Of a DNA stretch of 64,000 nucleotides, positions 1 to 55,604 are shown piece by piece. Position numbers and translations under genes: made by a program. This DNA is from Fuerstiella marisgermanici. GTDB lineage: Bacteria; Planctomycetota; Planctomycetia; Planctomycetales; Planctomycetaceae. Position 1 is the stretch's first letter, and each line of letters starts with the position of its first letter. The notes beneath the pieces are model-generated. The model was not told where the DNA came from, did no database searches, and worked only from the letters and a program-made list of their open reading frames with translations. Location: positions 744,001-808,000 of the forward strand of contig NZ_CP017641.1 of the NCBI RefSeq assembly GCF_001983935.1, written 5' to 3'.

Positions 1-704
1 TCCATCTGCCGGAACGACAGATTCCACACGTCGACAATCGTCAACTGTTGAGGAACCGCGTCTTTGTGACCTGTCAGGATTTTCAAGGCCATTGCGGCCT
101 GCAGCGATGCGATCACGCCGATAGCGGGGCCAAGTACGCCGGCTGTGTCGCAGGTTTCCGTCGAACCGGGTGGGGGAGGATTCTGCATCAGACAACGCAG
201 GCACGCCGTCCGGCCAGGAATCACAGGCATCATTTGGCCATGGCTGCCCGTGCAACCGGTGAAGATCCACGGGATGCCGGTCTCCAGCGAGACATCGTTA
301 ATTAGGTAGCGAATCTCAAAGTTGTCCGTCCCGTCCATGATCAGATCCACGCCCTCCGCGAATCCTCGAACGTTGTTGAAGTCGGCATCCGCAACGATTG
401 GTTCGATTTCAATTGACGAATTGATCCGCTGCAGACGGTTGACTGCTGCAATCGCTTTGGGCAGGTGAGCCGTCACGTCATCTTCAGTGAACAGCGTTTG
501 CCGCTGTAGGTTGCTGAGTTCCACGAAGTCGCGATCGACGATTCGTAGAAAACCAACGCCGGCCCGTGTGAGAGCATCAGCTAGTACACAACCTAATGCT
601 CCGCAGCCGACCAGCAGCACACGACGTTCGGCCAGCGCCTGCTGACCGGCCTGCCCGACGCCGTCGAACAGAATTTGTTTTTGATATCTTGAATCTGAAT
701 TCAT
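1..704 (-). CDS. ThiF/MoeB/HesA-family E1-like adenylyltransferase (partial, C-terminus off window)
   Basis: The reading frame opens at an ATG at 704 and runs off the left edge. Enzymes of this family adenylate the C-terminal glycine of a ubiquitin-like sulfur carrier (ThiS, MoaD). A GCGALG nucleotide-binding motif sits at residues 33-38, followed by LSNLQRQ with the conserved Arg, the DGTDNFEIRYLIND signature near 124-137, a CLRC zinc pair (Cys168, Cys171) and TCDTAG containing the position of the family's reactive Cys. About 234 residues are visible; the family is usually 245-390 residues long, so a C-terminal rhodanese domain may lie outside. It starts 21 bases after the Rieske gene stops, on the same strand. 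ThiF and MoeB cannot be separated from this part. Confidence 0.9.
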   Translation of the reverse strand, partial: MNSDSRYQKQILFDGVGQAGQQALAERRVLLVGCGALGCVLADALTRAGVGFLRIVDRDFVELSNLQRQTLFTEDDVTAHLPKAIAAVNRLQRINSSIEIEPIVADADFNNVRGFAEGVDLIMDGTDNFEIRYLINDVSLETGIPWIFTGCTGSHGQMMPVIPGRTACLRCLMQNPPPPGSTETCDTAGVLGPAIGVIASLQAAMALKILTGHKDAVPQQLTIVDVWNLSFRQM

Positions 705-724
705 GGCGCGAAGTGTACGAACTT

Positions 725-1030
725 CTACAGCTGAACGCACACCTTGCCGTCCTGCACACTGGCTTCGTAGCTGGTTTGACACAGCGTTTCGTTTAGACAG
801 TGTCGCCCGCTGGTGACGTCAAACTGCCATCCGTGCCAGGGACAGGTGACGATGCTGCCATCAAGAGCCCCCTTGCCCAACGGCCCACCAGCGTGAGGGC
901 AGATGCCGTCCAGCACGTGAAACGTTCCGTCGACGTTGAAGACGGCAAAGATGCGACCGTCAGCAACGACTTCAGCGGACTCGCCCGGCGGAACCGATTC
1001 GGCATCGATAAGGGGAATCACTTCCGGCAT
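725..1030 (-). CDS. Rieske-type [2Fe-2S] ferredoxin
   Basis: A 101-residue soluble Rieske protein. The cluster ligands are visible as C44-P-H46 and C63-PW-H66, with the typical HAGGPLGKG spacer and a CPWHGWQFD second box, as in the ferredoxins of aromatic-ring dioxygenases and small NirD-like proteins. It would pass electrons to an oxygenase or reductase. An ATG at 1084 is in frame, but the start at 1030 is preferred because it lies just after the stop of the upstream oxidoreductase (1035-1037) and gives the normal family N-terminus. The close spacing suggests co-transcription with the halogenase-like gene. The partner is inferred from position only. Confidence 0.88.
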   Translation of the reverse strand: MPEVIPLIDAESVPPGESAEVVADGRIFAVFNVDGTFHVLDGICPHAGGPLGKGALDGSIVTCPWHGWQFDVTSGRHCLNETLCQTSYEASVQDGKVCVQL

Positions 1031-1034
1031 TCGA

Positions 1035-2360
1035 TCACGCCATTGCCGGCTGCTGTACAGGTTCGTCAGTCGACGGCTCATCACCTGACGGCATAATGTT
1101 TCCCATCACCTTGAAGATGTCTGAAACACCCGGCTTGAAAACGTCGCCGACCAGAATGTCGACCATATTCGACTTGTACTCAGGATACTCTCTTAGGAAC
1201 GTGCCGAAGCTGAAGTCTTCTGCATAGAACGCGTAAACCAGCTTGCGAAAGTTTTCAATGCCCTGCTTGTACAGCGGCTGCCACTGCCCGAGTCGCGGGG
1301 CCGTCAGGTCGCCTCGCTGCAATGCATCGTGAATCGCATCAGCCGCGAATTCGCCACCCTTGAGCGCGAGATAGACACCGCTGGAATAGACCGGGTCGAT
1401 AAAGCCGAACGCATCGCCCACGGACAGCCAACCGTTTCCTGCCGTTTCGCTCGAATAGTAGGAGAAGTCTTTCGTGGTGAAGAAATCCGTGCAACGTTCG
1501 GCATCGACCAGTCGTTTTTCCAGAGCTGGGCAAAGTTGCAATTCGCGCTGATACACGGTTTCAGCGTCACCGTTTTCTTTTCCGAACATGTGTTCCATGT
1601 TGCCTACGCAGCCAATGCTGACCACGTTGTCCGGCAATGGAATAAACCAAAACCATGACTTGTTGTCGGACGTCTGCATGACCAGCGTCGCGCCACCGTC
1701 CTTGCCGGGGTCCCGATAGGCGTTCTTCCAGTAGGTCCAGATCGTGCCCTTCTTCAGGTGCGGATCGCGGTCTCGTTGCCCGCGGCGGTTACCGATAAAC
1801 GCAGTTTGTCCGCTTGCGTCCACCACGACTCGACTGCGAATTTCGCGTTCCGTGCGGCCGCCATCTTCGTTTAGCAATCGACACTTCACGCCGACCGCTA
1901 CATCACCTTCAAATACGACATCCGTGGCATGTCCAGACGTGTGAACGACGGCTCCCAGTTCTGTCGCGCGGTCCAGCAGCATTTGATCGAACACACCTCG
2001 TTCGACCTGCCACGTGACACTGGATTCATGATCGTTGTACATCTCAAAGTAGAACGGCGCAGATTCTTTCACGCCGTTGCTGACGAACTGCACGCTGTAC
2101 TTGCGCGGAAACGCGGAGGCCTTCATGCGATCCACCATTCCCAAGCGTTTCAGTGGCCAGTAGGTTTCCGGGATCAGCGACTCACCCACGTGAAATCGGG
2201 GCAGAGCGGCTCGTTCCAGCAGCAGGACGCTGTATCCATGTTCGGCGACTAAAGCAGCCGTCGTGGCACCTGCCGGACCGCCGCCGATGACAACGACATC
2301 GTACGAATCCTCGACAGGCGGAAGATAGTTGACCGGATTTTGTGGGTCGGGCTGAATCAT
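1035..2360 (-). CDS. FAD-dependent oxidoreductase of the flavin-dependent halogenase family
   Basis: A 441-residue flavoprotein. GGGPAG near residues 26-31 is the dinucleotide-binding motif. HVGESLIPE follows, then a conserved-looking Lys in FPRKYSVQF near residue 85. WFWFIP near residue 235 matches the WxWxIP motif of FADH2-dependent halogenases. GDAFGFIDPVYSSG near the C-terminal third is the second FAD-binding box. The family chlorinates or brominates aromatic rings through HOCl and an active-site Lys, but some members are monooxygenases or reductases. The ATG at 2360 was chosen because the 74 codons upstream look non-coding and the Rossmann motif follows normally. Neighbours (chorismate-lyase-like, Rieske, radical SAM) suggest an aromatic substrate; this is inference. 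Confidence 0.87.
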   Translation of the reverse strand: MIQPDPQNPVNYLPPVEDSYDVVVIGGGPAGATTAALVAEHGYSVLLLERAALPRFHVGESLIPETYWPLKRLGMVDRMKASAFPRKYSVQFVSNGVKESAPFYFEMYNDHESSVTWQVERGVFDQMLLDRATELGAVVHTSGHATDVVFEGDVAVGVKCRLLNEDGGRTEREIRSRVVVDASGQTAFIGNRRGQRDRDPHLKKGTIWTYWKNAYRDPGKDGGATLVMQTSDNKSWFWFIPLPDNVVSIGCVGNMEHMFGKENGDAETVYQRELQLCPALEKRLVDAERCTDFFTTKDFSYYSSETAGNGWLSVGDAFGFIDPVYSSGVYLALKGGEFAADAIHDALQRGDLTAPRLGQWQPLYKQGIENFRKLVYAFYAEDFSFGTFLREYPEYKSNMVDILVGDVFKPGVSDIFKVMGNIMPSGDEPSTDEPVQQPAMA

Positions 2361-2505
2361 AGCGTGGTGTCGCAGAAATGGGTGGAGGGAGGCAAATTTG
2401 CGGCGGGACGAACGTTGCCCGTGCTGGTGTTTTGCCTCAGCTCGGGCTGTTTTGCGAGCGTTAGGCGTCGTACGAGCAGATTCGCTGGACCACAATATAA
2501 TCGTT

Positions 2506-3048
2506 CTAGGTGAGAGGTGCAGAAATTTCCAATAAATCGACGGCCGGTGACCCATTGCAGAAAATCGTGGCCATACGCCCAAATGTCTCCTGGCCGACGT
2601 CCATCTGCAAATACCGGCTCAACCCGGCCCCGGCCTTGAATTTGACAATCGCGCCCAGGTCGATATGCCTTAAGACGTTATGTTGAATCAAGACTCGGCC
2701 TAGCGGGATCTCTTCCGATTCGATCTGTTCACGAACGGTGTCATTCACGAATCCGAAATTGAAACGCACAATCCCGAACTGGACGTTCTGTTCTGTGCCA
2801 TGCTTTTTTAACAGGATCTTACGGCAGTACAGGTCGCCAACGTACTTTGAGTCCACGACGACCACATCGACCGAACAATCATGGTAGCGTTCCATGTTCA
2901 CGGTCATGTGATGTTCGTGTACCAGCATGCGGTGATAGGGTTCTGGCGTCGCTTCGCGCGGAACGTGTTCTGCGGACAGATACAACGGCTCCCCTTCAGG
3001 TTCGGGAAACAAAGCGCACAGTTGGTCGAGCTCAATCAGAGGGTTCAC
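2506..3048 (-). CDS. Chorismate lyase-like (UbiC/DUF98-type) protein
   Basis: A 180-residue protein starting at GTG. It carries the pattern LVHEHHMTVNMERYHD, then YCRKILL and IPLGRVLIQHNVLRHIDLG. This resembles the chorismate lyase / 4-hydroxybenzoate synthetase-like families (UbiC, DUF98), where an Arg and a late Glu hold chorismate and pyruvate is released. A role making a hydroxybenzoate from chorismate is plausible, but activity cannot be shown from sequence. It lies between a radical SAM gene and a halogenase-like flavoprotein, all on the minus strand with gaps of about 150 bases, so it may supply their aromatic starter. Confidence 0.72.
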   Translation of the reverse strand: MNPLIELDQLCALFPEPEGEPLYLSAEHVPREATPEPYHRMLVHEHHMTVNMERYHDCSVDVVVVDSKYVGDLYCRKILLKKHGTEQNVQFGIVRFNFGFVNDTVREQIESEEIPLGRVLIQHNVLRHIDLGAIVKFKAGAGLSRYLQMDVGQETFGRMATIFCNGSPAVDLLEISAPLT

Positions 3049-3202
3049 AGACGGCAGGTTTCTGAGTTTGGATGAGAAAAACGGTCAGATGCGGGCCAGT
3101 TGCTCTCGCTACGCAAGCGGCTGGAAAACGCCTCCGTGTCGCCCATCGTCGTTTCATGCGACGAAGACTTTTCCGCGTGGCAGGATACTTGATTCACTAC
3201 GC

Positions 3203-4522
3203 CTACGTATACCGAACAGCCCGGTGTTCGGGCTCGAAGTATTCCGGCAACAGGCTGTCGACCTGCAGCAAACCTTTACGGGTTAATGTGATGTCGTCGC
3301 CGTCGACGGTTAAGTACCCAGCCGCCTGTTGGTTGCTGAAAGCGGTTGAGAACTCTTTCAGGATGTCCACACCGAACTTATCGCGAAACGGCTGCGCACT
3401 AATGTGGCCTTCTTTCATCTGCAACACGACCTCCCGAATCAGACTCTGGTGAGCAGTCGGCTGGAGCGCTCGGTTGATCGGCAGTTCGCCGTTGTTCACG
3501 GTTTCGATGTAGTCTTCGATCTTGTCCAGGTTCTGGTAGTGCACGCCCTGGAAATGGCCGAACGACGAAACTCCCGTGGCCAGCAGGTCGCAGCCACGCC
3601 ACACGCTGTCTCGGTACACGAAGTGGTCGGTTTCCGGATTGTGAATCATTTCGTTGCCGCTGGAAATGTGATAGCCAGCCTTCGAAAGTTCGTCCATCGC
3701 CTCGCTCACCCAGCGACGTTTGGTCGGCCAGTCGGCGACGGGCGATGAGTTGCCACTTTCCTTCATCTCTTTCGAGTAGACGGTGTTGAACGGCAGTTCC
3801 ATCTGATAGATCGTGATGTTGTCCGGCTTCATCTCGATCGCTTTTTCGACACACTGTTGCCAGTTGTCATCGGTCTCGCCCACCATCCCTGCGATCAGGT
3901 CGATGTTAACCTGTGGAAAACCAACGTCCTGAATCCAGTCGTAGGCTCTTAGCACTTCCGGCGACAAATGTGCTCTGCCGTTTTCTTCCAGGATCTTGTC
4001 GTCGAAGTTTTCCACACCCAGCGATACTCGAGTGATGCCGATGTCTTTCAGCGTCTGCAGCTTCTCAAGACTTAGCGTACCAGGTTCGCATTCAAACGTG
4101 ACTTCGCGAGCATTCTCCCATGTGACATGCTCGCTCATGCGTTCCCGCAACGAACGCAGCTGTTTGGAACTCAGGTAAGACGGAGTCCCGCCGCCGAAGT
4201 ACACGAATTCCAGTTCTCGCCCCTGAACAGCCGGCTTGTGGCTAATCGTTTCGATTTCGCGAATCAACGCCTGTACATACTCTTCAATCGCTTTCGCGTT
4301 CTGATTGGTATACACGCGAAAGTAGCAAAACTTGCAGCGCTTGCGACAGAACGGAATGTGAATGTACAAGCCCAGCGGCGTCTTCTCTGTTTCGGCTTTC
4401 GGCCGTTCAAAGGCTTCGAACACTTGCGGTACGTTGTCCGCGGTCCACAGCGAGAAGGGTGGGTAGTTGGAGATGAAGTAGCTGCCAACTTCTGTCGATG
4501 TAGAAACGTCAGTTGTAGTCAT
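3203..4522 (-). CDS. HemN/HemW-like radical SAM protein
   Basis: A 439-residue radical SAM enzyme. Cys59, Cys63 and Cys66 in [11 protein letters not shown] form the 4Fe-4S site. YFGGGTPS near residue 110 is the SAM-binding GGE-type region. ECEPGT and GVENFDD follow in the order of coproporphyrinogen III dehydrogenase relatives, and the C-terminal 80 residues look like a HemN C-terminal domain. The sequence CKFCYFRVY differs from the CxYCDF of housekeeping HemN and HemW, so it is probably a specialised relative (oxidase, methyltransferase or haem chaperone). Position next to chorismate-lyase-like and halogenase-like genes hints at a biosynthetic role. The exact reaction is unknown. Confidence 0.83.
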
Positions 4523-4676
4523 GGGCTGTTTTTCGGAGTGCGGATTTTTTGAAATGCGGTAATGGCGGGGGAAGTCGAGTGTGGCTGATGTGGAATGTGA
4601 AAATGACCAATGAGACCGAGGCGAAGTCGACGGAGCTTGTTCACTCCATCATTTGATACGATCCACTGGTCTTTCT

Positions 4677-5867
4677 CTAGGCAAAGCACCGCAGGCGGCC
4701 GTTGTGATCGTCTTCGCCCACCACCATACAGCCTTCACCGATGGCAATGCCAGCGTTCACTGCTTTTCCAGCGTTGAACTTCCAGACCTCGGCGCCGTCT
4801 GCGAGACTCAAACCGTAAATATTGCCGTCGCCGGAACCGAAGAAGACGCGGTCATCAACAATGGCGGGCGAACTTTCGATGCGGGCTTTCGTGGCAAACG
4901 TCCATCGCGCCTTGCCTGTTTTTCGGTCGACGGCGTGCATCAGTTTGTCGTGATTGCCCACCAGGACCAGGTCCTTCGTCACGGCCGCAGAAGAATGGTA
5001 GGGCAGCTCACGATCACCAACATATCGCCAATCAATTTCACCCGTCTTCCAGTTCACGGCGACAAGTTCGCCCGCGTGCGAACCCACGTACAGAAGGTCG
5101 CCCATGATCGCAGGCGATGCGATCAATTGTGATTCCAGCGGGACGTTGCGGACTTCCTCATGAGTTTTCAGGTCGATGACTCGAAGCTGAGTATCGCAGC
5201 CGGACAGAAATGTGAAGTTCTCAGCGACGGCCGGCGAGCAGTTGATCATGTCGTCCGTCTGGAAACTCCATGTTTCCTTGCCAGCCTCAGAAATGCCGTA
5301 CAGCTTGCTGTCGTGCGATGCCAGCAACAGTTCGTTGCCGTACTTTGCAACTCCGCCCGCGATTTCAGCATCTGATACGAACTTCCATAAACGCTTGCCT
5401 GTTTTGCGATCGACGGCGTGAAGGATTCCGTCTTCGTCGCCCACGTACACAGCACTGGCGGTCACCAGCGGAGCCGCCTTGAAGCCTGGCGCAAATTTCT
5501 TTTCGTCCGGATCGTCGATCGATCGATACTTCCAGATCTCTTTGCCGGTCGCTTTATGCAGGCAATACAGATAGCCTTGCAGAGCCGGAGCGTAAACGTG
5601 GTCGCCGACGATGGCACAAGTCGCAACCCAGCCGTCGCGCGACTTCAGTTCCCACTTCAGCTCGGGCTGTTTCGACAGCGTGGTTTTTGCGACGCCCTGT
5701 TGAGCGGGGCCGTGACGAAACGATGCCCAGCTCGATTCCGTCGGCGCGGCGAGTGGCGTCGGTTTGGTCTGATCTTCGGCGAAGGCCGGGACTCCGCCTG
5801 TTGCCATCAGCGTGGCACCTGCGGTCAAAGTCTTCAGGGCGTGTCGTCGTGTGAAAGTAGACGGCAT
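4677..5867 (-). CDS. Tat-exported PQQ-like beta-propeller repeat protein
   Basis: A 396-residue secreted protein. The N-terminus RRHALKTLTAGATL is a twin-arginine signal ending near AFAEDQ. The body is made of repeated blades with the pattern G-x-hydrophobic-hydrophobic-(A/S)-x-D-x-x-T-G-(K/E)-x-x-W (for example AVDRKTGKRLW, LHKATGKEIW, AVNWKTGEIDW), typical of BamB/quinoprotein propellers. No PQQ-ligand set or cytochrome domain is evident, so it is more likely a scaffold or structural propeller than a dehydrogenase. The ATG at 5867 begins the signal peptide; longer in-frame extensions look non-coding. Such Tat propellers are abundant in planctomycetes. Confidence 0.87.
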   Translation of the reverse strand: MPSTFTRRHALKTLTAGATLMATGGVPAFAEDQTKPTPLAAPTESSWASFRHGPAQQGVAKTTLSKQPELKWELKSRDGWVATCAIVGDHVYAPALQGYLYCLHKATGKEIWKYRSIDDPDEKKFAPGFKAAPLVTASAVYVGDEDGILHAVDRKTGKRLWKFVSDAEIAGGVAKYGNELLLASHDSKLYGISEAGKETWSFQTDDMINCSPAVAENFTFLSGCDTQLRVIDLKTHEEVRNVPLESQLIASPAIMGDLLYVGSHAGELVAVNWKTGEIDWRYVGDRELPYHSSAAVTKDLVLVGNHDKLMHAVDRKTGKARWTFATKARIESSPAIVDDRVFFGSGDGNIYGLSLADGAEVWKFNAGKAVNAGIAIGEGCMVVGEDDHNGRLRCFA

Positions 5868-6081
5868 GGTGGCTCCGGCGGGCTGAGGTGGGCGCGGCCT
5901 TGGCTTTGCGTTCGTTACGAAGGCAAAATTCAGGCGGATGGCTGTTCGCTCAATTATTACGGATTTGCCGATCGAGTCGAGTGGCGAGTCCCGTCTTTCC
6001 GCCAGAACGCCTGCCGCTGTTCTGCCACCCGCAGGGACTTCTGAGGCCGCCTGAGGTCCGCGACCTGGCCCCAACGACGCC

Positions 6082-6966
6082 CTACGCCGCTCGCCGCGTC
6101 CGCACCTTACTTTGTCGAGCCGTGTCGCTGTTGCGCTGGGCCCGTTTTTTGGCTCGCTGCTTTTCGACAAAGCGAGTCGCTTCCGGGCGAATACGCATAA
6201 ACGCGTTCCGCATGCGTACAGCGTCCGGAAATCGCTTGGCCCCATTGATCTCAATCGACTTTCTTAGCCACGCGATCATGGATTGCGGGACTCGTGTCTT
6301 CAGTTTCTGGTAGCCCGGCAGCGGCCATTCGTACGGCCATTCCGGCCACTGGCCAGCCAGCATTCGGTAGAAAACCAGACCCAGCGAAAACACGTCAGAT
6401 CGGCAGGAAGGCCGCCCCATCGCCTGTTCCGGAGCCATGTACCCGACTGTACCCGTGCCACACCCTTTAATGGTTTGACGAGCTACTTTCGCAATTCCGA
6501 AATCGGCCAAACGAGCCGATCCGTCCGCAAACAGGATTACGTTTTCCGGCTTGATGTCGCAATGAATCACTTTGCGTTCATGAGCGAACGCGACCGCTTC
6601 CATCAATTGGTCGATCAGCAGCATCGTGGTGTCAAACGACATGCGACGCGACAATCGGTCAAACAGCGTTTCCATGCCCAGCGGAAACGAAATCACAAGA
6701 CGTCCATTGATGATGCTGGCGTCTTTAATCTGCAGAATGCCCGGATGGTCGACGGTGGCCAGCAGGCGGCTTTCTTTTCGAAAGCTGGCCAGAAGCTGGT
6801 CATCCACCAGCGGCTCATGAGGAATTTTCAGGGCAACGCGAGTTCCCATGATTGTGTCCATGGCCTGAAACACGCTCGCAAAACCGCCTTCCCCAAGGCG
6901 TTTTTCGATCCGATATTTGCCAAGTTTCTGGCGAATGCGAAGCTTTGTGGATGGTACTGATGGCAT
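6082..6966 (-). CDS. Serine/threonine protein kinase, single domain
   Basis: A 294-residue Hanks-type kinase with no transmembrane segment. It has the Gly-rich loop LGEGGFASV near residue 22, the VALKIP lysine, HCDIKPENV as catalytic loop (Cys where most kinases have Arg, so a non-RD kinase), DFGIAK, and GTVGYMAPEQ as activation-segment end. The C-terminus is a short basic tail. The internal ATG at 6966 is preferred over an ATG at 7014 because the extension shows no kinase character. No neighbour points to a substrate. Non-RD kinases often lack activation-loop phosphorylation control; here that is inference. Confidence 0.88.
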   Translation of the reverse strand: MPSVPSTKLRIRQKLGKYRIEKRLGEGGFASVFQAMDTIMGTRVALKIPHEPLVDDQLLASFRKESRLLATVDHPGILQIKDASIINGRLVISFPLGMETLFDRLSRRMSFDTTMLLIDQLMEAVAFAHERKVIHCDIKPENVILFADGSARLADFGIAKVARQTIKGCGTGTVGYMAPEQAMGRPSCRSDVFSLGLVFYRMLAGQWPEWPYEWPLPGYQKLKTRVPQSMIAWLRKSIEINGAKRFPDAVRMRNAFMRIRPEATRFVEKQRAKKRAQRNSDTARQSKVRTRRAA

Positions 6967-19568: not shown

Positions 19569-21479
19569 CTATGTGGTTTCGCCGAACAGTGAATCTCGAG
19601 CGATGTCCTGTTTTAGCAATTGTGCGCGAACCTGAAACTGCTGTTTCTCGGCTGCTTTCTGCAGCCGAGCCAGCGGGCGTGAAAAGTCGGACACAGCTTC
19701 ATCACTGGCACCGGCTTCTCGAACAATGGCAACGCCCAACCACGCACCGAAACGAACGATCACAGCATCCTCGGCCGACACAAACGTCTGAACGGAACCC
19801 GGCTGTCCCTGACGAGCGCAGCGGCCTGCCAGTTGCCTGTCCATGCGGTCGGATAGTTGGCATTCCGCGATGATCACGTGCAAACCGCCCAGTTGCTGAA
19901 CGTCGTCTGCGACGCTGATGTCCGTACCGCGGCCTGCCAGGTTGGTTGAAATCGTAATGGCAGATTTTTGGCCCGCCAAAGCGACAATGTCTGCTTCTTC
20001 CGCGGTCTGCAAACCGTTCAGCAGCCGGAATTCCAGTCCGATCGTTTTCAAACGAGTCGCGACGTCCTGACTATCGGTGATGGATTGCGTGCCGACCAGG
20101 ACGGGCTGCCCAGTTGCATGGCGTCGCTGAGTTTCGCTCACAATGGCATCCAGCTTCGCCTCACGAGTTTTGAAGAATCGCGTCGGCAGGTGCGATCTCT
20201 GCGATGGCCGGTGCAACGGGATCGCGGCCACTTTGCTGCGAAACACATGAGCGAACTCAGCCTCACACCCGACGGCCGTTCCGGTCATACCGCAAAGCGT
20301 TTGATAGCGGCGGAAGAAGCGTTGGCGAGAAATCTGGGCGAGCGATTCCTTCTCGGGCGTCACGGGAAGTTGTTCGCGAACTTCGATCGCCTGGTGCAGC
20401 CCATCCTGCCATGAACGATCTTCAAATATCCGTCCCGTTGACTGATCGACAATTCTCACTTCGTCGTCGGCAATGATGTAATGAACGTCGCGGCGAAACA
20501 GGTACTTGGCTCGTAATGCCTGTTCGACGTACGACGTCCACGGCCGTAGCAGCACACTGGCCGGCACATCGACATCGTCCGCATAGCAGCGAGTTCGGCC
20601 GGTATCCGTCAGAGTGACGTGGTTGATCGTATAGTCATGCGCGAAGTGTTGATCCCGCTGTAATTCTTCCACCAGTCGGAAGGCGGCGTTGTGCGCGTCG
20701 AGGTCAGAAGCTGGGCCTGTTCCTGCCATACTTAACACCAGCGGAGACGCGGCATCGTCGATCATCACGCTGTCCGCCTCGTCCACGACCGCAAACACCA
20801 GGCCGCGTTGGATGGTCGTGCGTGCGGTTGGCTTGCTGGAACGCAGTTGCTGCAGCAGACTGGCGCCCAGCGGTGCCGCAGATTCCGAACGCAAAGTCAG
20901 CTGGTCGCGCAGATAGTCGAATCCGAATTCATGTCCTGTGCCATAGGTGACGTCGCAGTCGTAAGCCATTCGCTTCACGTCTGTCTCACCCTGTTCCGGC
21001 GTCAGTCCCACAGTCATACCCAGCTGCTGAAGCACGGGTTGAGCAAGCTCACAGTCGCGTTCGGCCAGATAGCTATTCGGCGTCATCACGTGAACGCCCT
21101 TCCCGGCCAAAGCGAAGTAGGCGGCGGCCGTGATAGCGACGAATGTCTTGCCTTCGCCGGTGTGCATTTGAGCGATGCGGCCATGAGCCAGTTGAATGGC
21201 GGCCAGCATCTGCACGTCATACAGGTTGATCCCGTGACTGCGACGCACCGCTTCGCACGCCAAAGCGACGCCCGCCACGATCATTTCGGGTGAGTCGACG
21301 GTGGCACCGCACAGCAATTCACTACGCAGGTTCCCTGCTTCTGCGATGAGTGCCTTGGCGGAACAATCAGACAGAGTTTCTGTGAGGCCGCGAATGTGCG
21401 GCACCATTTTTTCGGCACTACGCGACTGCCGAGGTGCTCTGCGCCGGAACGGGATGACGTCGGTCGTGGCCATGTACAC
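19569..21479 (-). CDS. SecA-like accessory preprotein translocase ATPase (short form)
   Basis: A 636-residue DEAD-type motor closely related to SecA. It has MHTGEGKT (Walker A, residues 105-112), TPNSYLAERD, YGTGHEFGFDYLRD, VVDEADSVMID (Walker B, DEAD at 233-236), then GMTGTA and TNLAGRGTDI in the second motor domain and a final GRCARQGQPGS arginine-finger motif. Housekeeping SecA is about 830-1000 residues; the helical-wing and zinc-binding C-terminal parts are missing or much reduced here. It follows the TolC-type gene by 40 bases, so an accessory export role linked to that outer-membrane channel is inferred. The start may be the second ATG at 21473. Confidence 0.88.
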   Translation of the reverse strand: MYMATTDVIPFRRRAPRQSRSAEKMVPHIRGLTETLSDCSAKALIAEAGNLRSELLCGATVDSPEMIVAGVALACEAVRRSHGINLYDVQMLAAIQLAHGRIAQMHTGEGKTFVAITAAAYFALAGKGVHVMTPNSYLAERDCELAQPVLQQLGMTVGLTPEQGETDVKRMAYDCDVTYGTGHEFGFDYLRDQLTLRSESAAPLGASLLQQLRSSKPTARTTIQRGLVFAVVDEADSVMIDDAASPLVLSMAGTGPASDLDAHNAAFRLVEELQRDQHFAHDYTINHVTLTDTGRTRCYADDVDVPASVLLRPWTSYVEQALRAKYLFRRDVHYIIADDEVRIVDQSTGRIFEDRSWQDGLHQAIEVREQLPVTPEKESLAQISRQRFFRRYQTLCGMTGTAVGCEAEFAHVFRSKVAAIPLHRPSQRSHLPTRFFKTREAKLDAIVSETQRRHATGQPVLVGTQSITDSQDVATRLKTIGLEFRLLNGLQTAEEADIVALAGQKSAITISTNLAGRGTDISVADDVQQLGGLHVIIAECQLSDRMDRQLAGRCARQGQPGSVQTFVSAEDAVIVRFGAWLGVAIVREAGASDEAVSDFSRPLARLQKAAEKQQFQVRAQLLKQDIARDSLFGETT

Positions 21480-21519
21480 AAACAGCTTTCAACGTTCAGC
21501 TCTCAGTTGTGACCGCTAC

Positions 21520-24500
21520 TTACCTCGTCTGACTCACCGGCCTCGCCCATGTTGTTGGATGTGCGGGCATCGGTCGCACCACACCGCTGGCGTCATAGGT
21601 GGGCGACGTCGGCGGATTGCTGGCCTGGCTGGCCTGGCTGGCCTTTGCGACCGGTTGACCATAATTGGCGGCCGTACCGACCACGGCCTGCGTTCGATCC
21701 TCTGGTCGAGAAGGATTGGCGGCATCAAACGCAGAGTCGAGGCGATTGTCGATCCACTGCTGTTCAGCCTGCTGAATGTTGGGTCGCTGATGACGTGACT
21801 GCAGCAGGATTCCGATCTCCTTTTTCAAAGCGACCAGCGCGATGGCATGATCGACCTGTGCCTGCACGAAAGCTGCTTCTTCATCAGCACGGCGTTCGTA
21901 AGAATCCAACAGGTCCTCAAGCAACAGCGTCGCCGAATCTTCTGATGCCGGCAGCACTTCGAAACGGTCCTGCAGGTACCGGGATTCGTTGTCGGCGGCG
22001 GACATCGACTGATAGCGGCTTAGCATTTCTGAATACGCTGTGGCCACTTCGCGGTTCGCGATCTCGACGTCGGTCAGCAATTTTTCGACGGTCGCTCGAA
22101 ACACATTGACCGCTCGCTTCAGTTCCCATTGTCGCTGTTCCAGCCGAGCCCGCGCCGCGCGGTTTTCAATTGGGAACTCAAACTCCAGCCCCACGGTGTA
22201 GCCCGGACGGTTGTCGCCGTATTGACCCCGCAGAGCTTCACCAAGGTTCGAACGTCCTGCGAGGTCTGCGACATAAGTTTCGACAAGGAAATCCAACCGA
22301 GGCAGCAATTCCTGACGGCTGACGCCAAGTCGCACTGCTGCGCCTCGCATCTGCCGAATCGCTTCTGAAATGTCCGGACGGTTCAGCAACGCGGTTTGCA
22401 GAACGCTTCGCAGATCGGCCGTTTCTGTCACGATACTGGGTGCTTCCATCGGTGTCAGTTCGACAGGCCCGCCGTTCGTCATGTCTGGTGAATTGACCAG
22501 CAAACGCAACTGAGCTTCTGCATCTTTGAATCGTGCAACCGTGCGTTGAATCCTCGTTTGCGAACGGGCCACAGCCGCGCGGGCGCGGAGAACCTGACGA
22601 GGAATCGTGTCGACCTGCTGACGCCCTTCAAGCCGTGCCAGCACATTTTGAGCGGCCATGAGCAGCTTTTGTCGCTGGAAGAATTCGGCACGGGCTCGGT
22701 GCAACGCCCAATAGGCCTTGGTCACTTCAATCAAGTGGTCCTGCAAAGCACCGACGACTTCATCTTCTGATGAGTTGGCCTGAATTCTGGCCAGGACAAT
22801 GTCACTTTCGTTGTAACTTCGCCCCGCGCCGTCCAGCAATGGCTGGCGGTAGCTGAGTTCCAGACGGGAAGTCGCCTGGTTGTTGGGGACGAAAAAGCTT
22901 GAGTTCTGATTTTCGTGCCCCAGTTGTTGACTGATTTGCAGTTCACCGCCGTATCTATTTCTCTGGCGGAGTCCGCCCTTCGATCGGGCTTTTCGCACAA
23001 TCAGTCGATCTTCACCATTACCGGTGGTCAGCGTGTTGCCGACGGGATCGTTAAGGTCGTCGTATTTGGTTTCCAGAAATGCCGTCCAGTCGAAGGCGGC
23101 GGCTTCCTGAGTGATTACGCGATACTGAACTTCCGGCTCAGTTTGAATCGCGGACACCTGCGGAGAATACAGCAGTGCATTTTGCAGAAGCGACCCAACT
23201 TCAACCGCGATCGAAGACGGCGCGTGTCCGGTTGGTTGACTCACATTAAAATCCCACCAGGGCTTGAACCCGGGCGGAAGTTCACGAAGGTGGGGAATGA
23301 CGTTTGGATTGCCATCGGACTGACCCGCCAAATCGGCGCGAGCGTGATACTGAGCCATCCACTGGAGACCATCTCGTTCCGAGGTCGCTCGGAAACCTGA
23401 CGTGCCCGGTGCCGGGCCGAGAAAAGAATGTCCACCGAGCGGCTGACCAATGCCCGCGCTGCTATCTGTGATGATCGTTTCTGAACCGACCGGCGCTGGA
23501 GCCTGCATTTCGGACGAATAGTGCGAATGCGCGCCCGGCTGGCCTTGTGCGGGACCATCGACAATCACCGTCGGCGGAACACCGCCGTTGTTCATGACGC
23601 CGCCGTGAATTTCGCCGCCATGAATTTCGCCAACGTGACCGTGGCCGCCATTGATTGAGCCAGACGGCAACGAATAGCCGCCCTGCAACGGCACCCCGTG
23701 CACTGGCGGCGGAGGCACTGACCCCGGAGCCTGGACCTGCGGCACCTGTTGCGTGGATTGTTGTGGCTGAAATGCGTTCTGCTGTGGAAACGTATTGTGC
23801 GGCTGGAACGTAGCCGGAGGCTGCCCCAAGCCATGCGGAGACGGCCCAAACGAATTGGCAGGCGCTGGTGATGCCGGTTCGACCGCCAGCGGCGGCGCGT
23901 TGCTCCTTGGCGTCACGGGCACCGGCGCTGCTGGCACCGGCGTTGTGCCTGGGTCAGGAGCTGGCTGCGGTGTCAGTTCTGATGTCTCAGGAATCGCAAG
24001 ACCGAACGGGCCACCTGGCGGCGGTGTATTGCCGTCCGGTCCAGCATTTGTCGCAGGTGGCTGCGGTGCTGCCTGCGGATCAAGCAGCCCGACCTTCAAT
24101 GAACTTCTATTCGGCGAAGCAGGTGCCCACCGGCGTGGCTGGATGGTCGGCCCGTTTGTGTTTGGTGAGTCAGGTTGGCCGATCCGGTTTTGAGTCGAGG
24201 CCGGATTATTATTGCTCAAAGGCTGAGGAGCAGAGAATGGCACTGGCGAATTCGCTTGTGCCCTGCGCTGATCGGCCTGCTCTTGATTTTGGTTTTGCTG
24301 CGGAATGGCAGACTGCGGGAACCTGTCAGTTGCTTTGGGTGACGCTGCGTCGGTGGATGGTGTGCTGCCCGGAAAAAGACGCCAGCCCGGGTGTGGCGAC
24401 GGCTTGTCGGCTGCGGCCGGCGATGGAGTCTGAGCCTGACCCTGAGTCTTAGCCGGGGGCGGCTCAGGCGGTGCAGCGGGTTCTGGATTCTGCGATACCA

Positions 24501-24897
24501 GCGACGCAATGGTTTCAAGGTCGGTATGTTCGTATAGGGCCGGTCCCTGCGGCGATTCCTGTCGCGGCCTAATCACGAGCTCGTTGTTCCTCGCGGCCCC
24601 ATTCCGTCGAACGATCTGGAGTCCGGGAACGGGCTGATCCGGCGACGTCTGCGTAGGCGTTGTTTCTGATGTGTTGGCTGCTGCGAAGTCAGGCAACTTC
24701 AGCCGAATTGACGTTGCTTGAGAATTTTGGTCTTCGGACGCCGCAGACAGGTCACCGGACGGCAGCGAATGGAAGAATATGGCAAAAAGTGAGGCCACTA
24801 GCAATCCGGCGCAAATTCGGCGCCGCTGCAAGCGCACTCCGTCCAAACGGAATTCGTCGCATTTCGTTTCGAATTCATCGGTTGAATTGGTTTGCAT
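21520..24897 (-). CDS. TolC-family outer-membrane efflux protein with long Pro-rich N-terminal region
   Basis: A 1125-residue protein. A hydrophobic helix lies near residues 26-45. Residues about 50-560 are low-complexity, rich in Pro, Gln, Gly and Ala, with a short His-Gly repeat (HGGEIHGG) near 420. The final 550 residues carry the two repeated alpha-helical blocks of TolC-type channels, for example SRLELSYRQPLLDGAGRSYNESDI and RLEQRQWELKRAVN. Ordinary TolC is about 470 residues, so the N-terminal half is an unusual addition. The ATG at 24897 is chosen; another lies at 24933. It probably forms an operon with the downstream SecA-like gene. Confidence 0.87.
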   Translation of the reverse strand: MQTNSTDEFETKCDEFRLDGVRLQRRRICAGLLVASLFAIFFHSLPSGDLSAASEDQNSQATSIRLKLPDFAAANTSETTPTQTSPDQPVPGLQIVRRNGAARNNELVIRPRQESPQGPALYEHTDLETIASLVSQNPEPAAPPEPPPAKTQGQAQTPSPAAADKPSPHPGWRLFPGSTPSTDAASPKATDRFPQSAIPQQNQNQEQADQRRAQANSPVPFSAPQPLSNNNPASTQNRIGQPDSPNTNGPTIQPRRWAPASPNRSSLKVGLLDPQAAPQPPATNAGPDGNTPPPGGPFGLAIPETSELTPQPAPDPGTTPVPAAPVPVTPRSNAPPLAVEPASPAPANSFGPSPHGLGQPPATFQPHNTFPQQNAFQPQQSTQQVPQVQAPGSVPPPPVHGVPLQGGYSLPSGSINGGHGHVGEIHGGEIHGGVMNNGGVPPTVIVDGPAQGQPGAHSHYSSEMQAPAPVGSETIITDSSAGIGQPLGGHSFLGPAPGTSGFRATSERDGLQWMAQYHARADLAGQSDGNPNVIPHLRELPPGFKPWWDFNVSQPTGHAPSSIAVEVGSLLQNALLYSPQVSAIQTEPEVQYRVITQEAAAFDWTAFLETKYDDLNDPVGNTLTTGNGEDRLIVRKARSKGGLRQRNRYGGELQISQQLGHENQNSSFFVPNNQATSRLELSYRQPLLDGAGRSYNESDIVLARIQANSSEDEVVGALQDHLIEVTKAYWALHRARAEFFQRQKLLMAAQNVLARLEGRQQVDTIPRQVLRARAAVARSQTRIQRTVARFKDAEAQLRLLVNSPDMTNGGPVELTPMEAPSIVTETADLRSVLQTALLNRPDISEAIRQMRGAAVRLGVSRQELLPRLDFLVETYVADLAGRSNLGEALRGQYGDNRPGYTVGLEFEFPIENRAARARLEQRQWELKRAVNVFRATVEKLLTDVEIANREVATAYSEMLSRYQSMSAADNESRYLQDRFEVLPASEDSATLLLEDLLDSYERRADEEAAFVQAQVDHAIALVALKKEIGILLQSRHQRPNIQQAEQQWIDNRLDSAFDAANPSRPEDRTQAVVGTAANYGQPVAKASQASQASNPPTSPTYDASGVVRPMPAHPTTWARPVSQTR

Positions 24898-25290
24898 AAG
24901 ACAAGCCGGCATTTCTAATGACGCGAGCCTCAACCTTGGTCGAGCGATCGCTCGGCAACGCTCCCATTCTGGGACGTCGAAGAGATACGCGCAGGACGCC
25001 AGGAGAACCGAACGGACACGTAACGGGTTCTCAGGAAAATCCTGTTACTCCGAACTTCGTCACGATCACTTCAGTCGGTACACGAATTTCAGTCGGCAGT
25101 AACCGCTAGAGCCGGAACAAGAAACAGCCTTTGCGCCATTTACCCAGGTTACACGCGGGAATGTCAGATAGGCAAAAACTGCCGCAGGCAACATGAGGGC
25201 CGCCCCTACCTGAAACCCGCTGCTTGCTCACGCTCGACGCGACGGCTAAGGTCTTGGGCTCGCAAGCCAGGTCCGCAAAAAGGGAGCAGC
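24898..25290. other. Divergent intergenic region with a 14-bp palindrome
   Basis: This 393-base gap separates the minus-strand TolC-type gene from the plus-strand DUF1223 gene and should hold both promoters. A perfect palindrome CGAGCGATCGCTCG lies at 24941-24954. AGGGAGCAGC just before 25291 is a ribosome-binding site. Short open frames here look non-coding. Confidence 0.5.
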
Positions 25291-53987: not shown

Positions 53988-55604
53988 TTAGTACATTTCC
54001 TCATCGTGATCATGTCCACCCTTTTTGTCAGCTTTCGGAGCTTCCGCAATCAGAGCGTCGCTCGTCAGCAGCAGGGTCGAAACGCTGGCCGCGTTTTGCA
54101 GAGCAGTACGAGTCACTTTGGTTGGGTCAATTACGCCACCCTTGACCATGTCTTCGTACTTGCCTGTTGCCGCGTTGTAGCCGTTGTTTCCAGTTTCGTT
54201 AGAAACCTTTTCACAGACAACAGCTCCGTCAACACCGGCGTTGTCTGCAATCTGAGTCAGCGGAGCTTTGCAGGCGCGAATGATGATGTCGAAACCGACT
54301 TTTTCGTCGTGAGACAACTTTGAAGGTTTGACGCTTGTTGAAGCTCGAAGCAAAGCAACGCCGCCGCCGGGAAGAATTCCTTCTTCAACAGCCGCGCGAG
54401 TTGCGTGCAGAGCGTCTTCAACGCGAGCTTTCTTTTCCTTCATTTCGCTTTCTGTAGCGGCTCCGACGTTAACCTGAGCAACTCCACCAGCGAGCTTCGC
54501 GATTCGTTCTTCCAGCTTTTCGCGATCGTAATCACTGCTGCTGTTTTCCATCTCGCGACGAATTTGCTCGATGCGAGCTGTGATGTCAGCCTTCTTGCCG
54601 CCACCTTCGATGATCGTCGTGTTGTCTTTGTCGACGACGATCTTCTTGGCCTGGCCAAGGTCTGCCAGTTCGATGTTTTCCAGCTTAGTGCCGAGGTCTT
54701 CGAAGATGGCCTGTCCACCAACCATGATAGCGATGTCCTGCAGCATTGCTTTGCGGCGATCGCCGTAGCCTGGAGCTTTCACAGCCGCGATCTTGAAGGT
54801 ACCACGCAGCTTGTTGATAACCAGCGTTGCGAGTGCTTCGCCTTCGACATCTTCTGCAATGATCAGCAGTGGCTTGCCGGAGTTAACGACCTTTTCCAGT
54901 ACTGGAACGAGGTCTTTGATGTTGCTGATCTTCTTTTCGTGAATCAGCACGTAAGCGTCTTCCATCACGCATTCCATGCCTTCGGAATCGGTGACGAAGT
55001 ATGGAGAAAGGTAACCACGATCGAACTGCAAACCTTCGACAACGTCGAAGTTCGTTTCGAGGCTCTTGCCTTCTTCGACGGTGATGACGCCATCTTTGCC
55101 AACGGCTTCCATGGCGTCCGCCAGGATGCTGCCGATTTCCGTGTCGTTGTTTGCCGCCACGCTGCCGACCTGAGCGATCGCTTTTTTGGTCCGGCATTCG
55201 GTTGCCATTCCTTTAAGCTGAGCTGTAATGTCTTCAACCGCTTTGTCCATGCCTCGCTTCATTTCCAGCGGGCTGACACCAGCAACAACAGCCTTCAGGC
55301 CTTCTTTATAGATCGCTTCTGCCATGACAGTGGCGGTCGTTGTGCCGTCACCGGCAACGTCCGACGTCTTGCTGGCCACTTCGCGGACCATGCGGGCACC
55401 CATGTCTTCGAACTTGTCAGTCAGTTCGATTTCACGAGCCACAGTCACACCGTCTTTTGTAACGGTTGGTGAGCCAAAGCTTTTTTCGATAATCACGTTG
55501 CGACCGCGTGGCCCCAATGTGACTTTGACAGCTCGTGCCAGCTTGGAAACGCCACGACGCATGGCTTCCTGAGCTTCCTGATCGAAGGCAATAATTTTCG
55601 ACAT
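53988..55604 (-). CDS. groEL: Chaperonin GroEL (60 kDa)
   Basis: A 538-residue chaperonin. [31 protein letters not shown] and [15 protein letters not shown] are conserved GroEL motifs with the ATP-site Asp residues. It forms the double heptameric ring that folds proteins with GroES. The C-terminus ends [10 protein letters not shown], not the Gly-Gly-Met repeats of E. coli. It follows groES by 157 bases and is followed by a terminator. No CIRCE inverted repeat was found around the operon, so control by HrcA is not supported. Confidence 0.98.

Follow-up and report, generated by a model that had tools for sequence, protein, structure and literature searches.

A short SecA and a TolC-type protein of Fuerstiella marisgermanici as putative parts of a split export machine for LEPR-XLL giant proteins

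Kamneva, Poudel and Ward (2015, PMC4452313) described "secondary SecA_DEAD" loci, in which a SecA_DEAD protein without the SecA_SW domain, falling outside the canonical SecA clade, is encoded with HlyD, GAF-HlyD and M50-HlyD partners and sometimes with an outer-membrane efflux protein (OEP). They proposed that SecA is the ATPase and the M50 protein a possible membrane pore, tied the wing and scaffold domain of SecA to SecYEG contact, observed that partner genes can be elsewhere in the genome, with some SecAs apart from their partners, and described the broader role as "completely unknown". Methylobacterium extorquens AM1 (META1p2399-2402) is named there as one carrier of such a locus. Here we analyze a gene pair in the planctomycete F. 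marisgermanici, a short SecA-like ATPase gene beside a TolC-type OEP gene, in a 64,000-nucleotide stretch (the window; NZ_CP017641.1, positions 744,001 to 808,000). The pair, first pointed out in a sequence-only reading of the stretch, belongs to the published kind, so it is not new at that level. What is new is the splitting of its operon, a branch-specific front on the OEP and, above all, a link to giant proteins with the LEPR-XLL motif (NCBIfam NF012209). Unlike a typical secondary SecA_DEAD locus, the window neighborhood lacks HlyD, GAF-HlyD and M50-HlyD genes, and reference HlyD and M50 proteins had no matching open reading frame (ORF) within the 64-kb window; OEP and SecA are kept paired, with the HlyD-HlyD-M50 half elsewhere, an arrangement that the published description allows. 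The word LEPR is absent from the main text of PMC4452313. We consider it probable that the window pair forms the motor and outer-membrane tunnel of a SecA-driven, type-I-like machine that exports LEPR giants, its partners being encoded at 2.645-2.650 Mb.

The window SecA retains its motor motifs and has lost more of its C-terminal part than the zinc region that the sequence-only reading found missing. It matches SecA_DEAD (E 6.8e-86) and SecA_PP_bind (4e-26), the better stretch of its P-loop_SecA match covers only positions 2-102 of 205, and all the ATPase motifs sought are present (TGEGKT, DEAD, GMTGTA, GRGTD and QLxGRxxRQG), as had been claimed. In the same domain search neither SEC-C nor SecA_SW found a match; since the housekeeping SecA of the genome (1183 residues) has both, the loss is larger than the zinc region alone. 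Alignment to that housekeeping copy stops at the start of the scaffold and, together with a low-confidence structure model, suggests that the protein ends within the first long scaffold helix; the two-helix finger is presumably missing too, by homology.

This architecture sets the protein apart from canonical SecA, which has the SecA_SW wing and scaffold domain, and likens it to SecA-N68, a C-terminal truncation of E. coli SecA (5k9t) that also consists of ATPase lobes and preprotein domain without the C-terminal part; SecA-N68 is a laboratory construct, whereas the window short form is a natural gene. Like the accessory SecA2 of Gram-positive bacteria and mycobacteria it is an extra SecA besides the housekeeping one, and SecA2 models match it in part. 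Unlike SecA2, it scores below every curated cut-off of the NCBIfam SecA2 models (357.8-528.2 bits against 725-1100), is without the wing and scaffold domain and adjoins a TolC-type gene. We therefore rejected a Gram-positive SecA2 identity on the scores, and a housekeeping identity on the missing SecA_SW and the position outside the housekeeping clade; the distinction from SecA2 drawn earlier is supported by gene context. Type I secretion (HlyB-HlyD-TolC) shares HlyD-type adaptors, a TolC-type channel and large adhesin-like cargo. It differs in that here a SecA-type motor and an M50 protease replace the ABC ATPase in the five-gene set, and in the N-terminal position of the cargo tag. The set is complete at a second locus of the same genome (L008, 5.468 Mb: OEP, SecA, HlyD, second HlyD-type protein, M50-HlyD), whose second HlyD-type protein has no GAF match. 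An ABC domain is absent among its five products; nearby ABC genes were not searched for, and by eye there is an ABC-type permease at L008:16773-17771.

The window OEP matches PF02321 over two stretches (E 6e-18, 65.7 bits against a cut-off of 22), and its core is 37% identical over 497 columns to the L008 OEP. The very long Pro/Gln/Gly region reported earlier is real: residues 61 to ~553 are 18% P, 11% A, 10% G, 9% Q and 9% S (P+Q+G+A+S = 56%). This front is found in the genus, has 160 to 285 residues in operon forms of related genera (G033, G019, G013 and G024) and is nearly missing from the L008 OEP, and is thus a trait of the window branch.

The sequence-only reading proposed no substrate. 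Some planctomycete SecA loci encode proteins with the N-terminus LExRxxL, the LEPR-XLL motif, and of the six such proteins scanned, one (L112) passes the NF012209 cut-off. Plasmids gave a more regular picture. One M50 query returned 83 records and one short-SecA query 132, many of them housekeeping SecAs; among the best 40 of each, examined as listed, we saw 11 alphaproteobacterial rows with both SecA and M50. Eight were examined (Mesorhizobium ciceri, Rhodobacteraceae M382, Methylosinus C49, Pseudosulfitobacter, Pontibrevibacter, Pseudohalocynthiibacter, Ensifer and Rhizobium WSM1274), and all eight have a LEPR giant upstream; outside this count are NZ_CP140808 and NZ_CP123586, which were not fetched, and R. 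johnstonii NZ_CP140822, which starts at the record's origin. Every one of the eight leaders is a basic stretch followed by [LMY]EPRxLL(S/N/A)AD, the Pseudohalocynthiibacter form (YEPR) having been missed by the search pattern and recognized by eye. Seven of the giant frames end beside the cassette, separated from it by no more than one DUF3467-type gene. The LEPR gene of M382 (3,472 residues) may be broken, since a small ORF and then another giant frame, spanning the origin of the record, come after it. The records themselves annotate the giants of Pseudosulfitobacter, Pontibrevibacter, M382 and Thalassospira as LEPR-XLL proteins. With the same kinds of gene on alphaproteobacterial plasmids, a planctomycete-only system is rejected; the earlier proposal of a dedicated secretion route stands, by gene context, without its restriction to the planctomycete envelope. 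No export route for LEPR-XLL proteins is named in the accessible portions of the literature using that term, and other spellings of LEPR led there to the leptin receptor and other unrelated topics. Within the open-licence literature, which excludes subscription papers and preprints, we found no report linking LEPR-XLL to a SecA/M50/HlyD/OEP machine and none on DUF4347 with HlyD or on a giant protein with HlyD, TolC and M50.

The association extends across planctomycete genomes. Among 343 surveyed, 62 outside the window's class have a LEPR match at E ≤ 0.1. M50-HlyD is found in 41/43 of those with E ≤ 0.01 (28/28 plus 13/15) and in 6/19 with weaker matches (E > 0.01 to 0.1), and at E 1e-40 in 0/28 LEPR-negative genomes, a set chosen by completeness from ten families out of about 200 genomes, with 14/28 from one family (f42). 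In addition to the housekeeping SecA, all 28 LEPR-positive genomes tested encode a second one, within ~0.7 kb of M50 in 25 (the exceptions being G098, G252 and G302), whereas each of the 28 LEPR-negative genomes has a single SecA match; some second SecAs lie in stop-free frames of up to 1445 codons, and shortness was not measured singly. A family-level Fisher comparison (8/8 against 0/10) treats hand-picked sets as independent, although both kinds of genome occur within families f43 and f52, and is a guide only, as are all our Fisher p-values, the genomes being related.

At individual planctomycete loci, LEPR-like ORFs adjoin a short SecA with M50 in L073, L074, L083, L096, L112, L304, L305 and L325, and, in L312 and L328, a short SecA for which the fetched stretch shows no M50; L304, L305 and L312 were chosen for a nearby LEPR match and are examples, not a count. 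The order in L305 (LEPR giant, DUF3467-like gene, HlyD, HlyD, M50, SecA) is near the alphaproteobacterial one. A 9,375-residue LEPR frame starts ~1.2 kb beyond the OEP of L125 in genome G020, and LEPR lies within 10 kb of M50 in seven genomes (G213, G291, G192, G343, G313, G275 and G330). Planctomycete adjacency alone is weak: LEPR-like ORFs occur in 6/26 SecA loci with M50 against 3/66 without (p 0.014), in a comparison where L073, L074 and L083 are related and the pattern missed the LESRQLL giant of L328. In 80 planctomycete M50 loci, one titled only 'bacterium' and many cut by contig ends, SecA lies beside seven, with a fragment in an eighth (L196), and a LEPR-like ORF occurs in four.

The window genome (G000; 8.92 Mb, one contig) itself has four LEPR frames, of 9,818, 4,615, 2,584 and 730 residues. 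A domain scan of the three shorter ones, which left out the 9,818-residue frame, found Ig-like, RHS, thrombospondin-C and VWA domains in the 4,615-residue protein, DUF4347, cadherin and bacterial Ig domains in the 2,584-residue protein, and a cyclophilin domain in the smallest. DUF4347 is also annotated in giants beside three proteobacterial cassettes without SecA. LEPR frames of the window genus (L146, L147, L150, L154, L157 and L158) share a stretch such as RLLLDEALSAVRSGLRDD before LEPR, which may be a genus-specific part of the leader.

The recurrence of the pair and the location of its missing partners were surveyed in 58 genomes, including the window's own, with the surroundings of 80 short-SecA places fetched. 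Window-type OEP-SecA pairs with intact frames (OEPs of 983 to 1166 residues) occur in G001-G004 and G012, so the pair is not a chance arrangement, and G005 has a 554-residue OEP frame with a SecA running to the contig end; SecA identity to the window copy is 64-68% across the relatives with the pair. No HlyD or M50 gene lies beside it in G000, G002, G003 or G004, with at least 4 kb downstream fetched. Close relatives of the window SecA are found in complete OEP-SecA-HlyD-HlyD-M50 rows in G033, G019 and G013, while a row in G024 stops at a contig end inside the second HlyD and the contig in G018 begins at SecA. G000 has a separate HlyD-HlyD-M50 triplet (L020) ~1.9 Mb from the pair, and the HlyD, HlyD and M50 proteins of the operon rows score higher against it than against the L008 set.

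The L020-type M50 (55-59% identity) is present in G001-G005 and G007; with G000 counted, six of the seven genomes having the pair carry it, the exception being G012 (86% complete); it was not found in G006, which is without the pair. G002, G003 and G004 have an intact triplet; in G001 its HlyD frames are broken, as are frames including M50 in G007, where the pair is represented only by a SecA fragment with no adjoining OEP. No SecA or OEP match lies beside the triplet in the 17-20 kb fetched from G001, G002, G003 and G007, and the G004 contig with the triplet contains nothing else. In G001, on contig C39 (L313), a LEPR match in a 221-residue frame lies ~7.5 kb from the triplet M50 gene.

The SecA tree fits this picture (60 rows, with L055 entered twice; midpoint-rooted). 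G000 has four SecA_DEAD loci: short copies at 0.764 Mb (the window gene), 5.158 Mb and 5.468 Mb, and the housekeeping copy at 2.60 Mb. A sole SecA, or a pair not conserved in relatives, would have refuted the sequence-only reading, and neither is the case. The linked HlyD and M50 genes for which that reading called do exist, in one operon in relatives and apart from the pair in the window genus. Eleven housekeeping SecAs form a single clade (support 100/99) with the window copy outside, and window-type SecAs join those of the intact operons in a 14-row clade (100/100); short SecAs overall need not be one clade. The simplest reading is that one ancestral five-gene operon was split in the window genus with both halves retained, such that window pair and L020 triplet would descend from an operon still intact in related genera. 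The tree also contains a third kind of SecA (L131, L132 and L134; frames of 812-835 residues), sister to the housekeeping clade (100/100) and present in some relatives, among them the window-genus genomes G006 and G007.

Several observations weigh against the proposed assignment of SecA, pair and cargo to one machine. None of the four LEPR genes of G000 is near any of its SecA loci. Contigs end less than ~1.2 kb from SecA in G001, G005 and G012, so the absence of HlyD and M50 next to the pair is shown only in G000, G002, G003 and G004. The structure model of the window SecA has a mean predicted local distance difference test (pLDDT) score of 60.4, too weak to judge the preprotein domain. In the LEPR survey, the make-up of the LEPR-negative set counts here as well, and two genomes, G142 and G271, have strong LEPR matches and no M50; in G271, where one match lies in a 13,664-residue frame and no M50 cassette was found, this is an exception or reflects missing sequence, the genome being 91% complete. 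The link weakens inside the window's class, for which 74 genomes were scored and G035 and G358 were put among those with a short SecA: LEPR occurs in 37/64 genomes with a short SecA and in 2/10 without (G216 and G242; p 0.04). The first 58 genomes gave 47/53 against 0/5 at the laxer E ≤ 0.5, a threshold that also matches 4/14 control genomes, for the 24-residue LEPR model is weak and still matches 1/14 controls at E 0.1. Finally, the best M50 scores in 20 short-SecA genomes are 701-1018 bits, but eight of the ten class genomes without a short SecA also have an M50 match (390-792 bits; two have none), so in these genomes M50 relatives are mostly retained in the absence of LEPR.

Cassettes without SecA also count against a strict requirement for the motor. 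Among nine proteobacterial M50 cassettes that lack SecA and have a readable neighbor N-terminus, seven have a LEPR-type giant (Burkholderia anthina, Eleftheria, Tistrella, Cupriavidus, Azospirillum, Niveispirillum and Variovorax, with leader LE(P/A)Rxx(F/Y)DA; the Tistrella giant is ~4.5 kb from the M50 gene). No giant with this leader accompanies the Phyllobacterium and Magnetospirillum cassettes, and an E. coli plasmid giant, its N-terminus not read, stands outside the nine. G216 has four LEPR matches and an M50 of 792 bits and no short SecA. SecA is therefore not strictly needed, a strict tie of LEPR to short SecA is rejected, and the tag goes with the M50-HlyD-OEP cassette. The flavor of the tag may go with SecA. 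In Thalassospira the leader is of the LEPRxLLSAD flavor (IEPRILLSAD), and neither annotation nor search showed a SecA nearby. The two flavors, LE(P/A)Rxx(F/Y)DA in cassettes without SecA (L253, L254, L255, L256, L258, L269 and L270) and LEPRxLLSAD, can be read directly from the leaders.

The M50 family conserves HExxH and NPLxRxDG, which suggests that the M50 protein is probably an active intramembrane protease. Its model (82.9) has a small strand-helix domain ahead of the membrane part; HlyD-family proteins and efflux adaptors are among the 50 fold matches listed for it, with no PqqD or M50 entry there. From the domains, motifs, operon structure, split and co-occurrence, all read from sequence, we infer a substrate, leader binding, cleavage and a conduit. 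The cargo would be very large surface or secreted proteins with a basic N-terminal stretch and then a LEPR-XLL-type motif, which fronts the giants beside the cassettes and the four frames of G000. The M50 protein may recognize the leader through its PqqD-like front, after which the short SecA could thread the unfolded chain by means of its two nucleotide-binding lobes and preprotein clamp. The M50 protease would then cleave the leader at or in the membrane, and the HlyD adaptors and OEP would form a conduit across periplasm and outer membrane, with the Pro-rich front of the OEP, as a guess, serving as a flexible periplasmic tether. The three parts encoded away from the window would be an HlyD adaptor, a second HlyD-type adaptor and an M50 protease fused to HlyD. 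G000 also encodes several M50-HlyD paralogues of different types, which may have other tasks. More broadly, it seems somewhat likely that SecA-M50-HlyD-OEP is a general giant-protein export route of Gram-negatives, in which LEPR-XLL acts as N-terminal export and cleavage signal and the SecA-driven and SecA-less versions use LEPRxLLSAD and LEPRxx(F/Y)DA, respectively. With a class of cargo recognizable by its tag, the role of an orphan machine becomes testable. If true, the LEPR-XLL domain gains a function, a SecA motor joins the engines that drive a type-I-like tunnel, and the possible export of 3,400- to 12,900-residue proteins by some Gram-negative cells is explained.

The same components could be put together otherwise. 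The short SecA could act as an accessory SecA2, delivering LEPR proteins or others to the ordinary SecYEG channel, with HlyD, M50 and OEP acting only in a second step. Retention of the two nucleotide-binding domains (NBD1 and NBD2) and the preprotein domain, and the presence of SecA-N68 among the fold matches of the model, are consistent with such a role, but the domain tied to SecYEG contact is the one missing from the window SecA, and second SecAs directly adjoin the M50 gene in 25/28 genomes; we regard this reading as doubtful.

Alternatively, the machine may be as we propose and its cargo small, the M50 protein maturing peptides like the ribosomally synthesized and post-translationally modified ones (RiPPs), with LEPR giants merely frequent neighbors. 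PqqD matches five of 14 M50 members, and the two M50 proteins scanned match a daptide model (178.9 and 191.2 bits) and a YydH/LiaK model (32.9 and 42.4 bits), but these scores are below the curated cut-offs of 300 and 225, and no precursor gene was noticed next to the annotated cassettes, though none was searched for. With a LEPR giant upstream in all eight plasmid loci and LEPR and M50 co-occurring over distant families, small-peptide cargo appears improbable. Still less probable is that the window pair is a decaying remnant of a broken operon and no longer has a function itself. Its separation from HlyD and M50 would fit decay, as would the broken triplet frames of G001 and the state of G007, but pair frames and motifs are intact in G000-G004 and G012 at the SecA identities given above, intact triplets persist in G000, G002, G003 and G004, and broken frames in draft genomes may be assembly errors. 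On these grounds we favor a SecA-driven machine for LEPR giants, whose window-encoded parts are located in Table 1. The OEP frame, confirmed like its neighbor by ORF and domain, may alternatively start at ATG 24897, its residue 13, giving 1125 residues; the SecA-like gene starts with GTG.

Table 1. Location of the OEP-SecA pair and its parts in the window
Feature	Position	Strand	Description or basis
Short SecA-like ATPase, 636 aa	19569..21479	-	NBD1, preprotein-binding domain, NBD2, first part of scaffold helix only
Walker A TGEGKT, residues 107-112 of SecA-like ATPase	21144..21161	-	coordinates hand-computed from frame
DEAD motif, residues 233-236 of SecA-like ATPase	20772..20783	-	coordinates hand-computed from frame
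Intergenic gap OEP/SecA, 40 bases	21480..21519	-	frame positions
TolC-type OEP, 1137 aa from TTG (24933)	21520..24933	-	ORF and OEP domain
Pro/Ala/Gly/Gln-rich OEP front, ~490 residues	23275..24753	-	coordinates hand-computed
OEP core	21799..23289	-	alignment to L008 OEP; coordinates hand-computed

Other genes recur around the cassettes. A small DUF3467-type gene (~100-180 residues) lies in or beside the cassette or short SecA in planctomycetes (L073:2672-3010; L303, L304, L305, L324 and L328) and on alphaproteobacterial plasmids (L245, L247, L249, L250 and L251); it is perhaps a chaperone and a possible extra part. A SapC-family gene occurs in or near three alphaproteobacterial cassettes (L248:16866-17687; L252:16870-17691, by eye; L271:12069-12848). 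Ahead of the five-gene operon of L008, positions 109-6441 encode two TPR/FG-GAP/UnbV_ASPIC proteins and a LuxR-type regulator; FG-GAP/ASPIC proteins were considered as general cargo and rejected, as the family occurs in only three of the loci clustered. Elsewhere in the window, a GroEL-like chaperonin gene was recognized by eye at 53988-55604.

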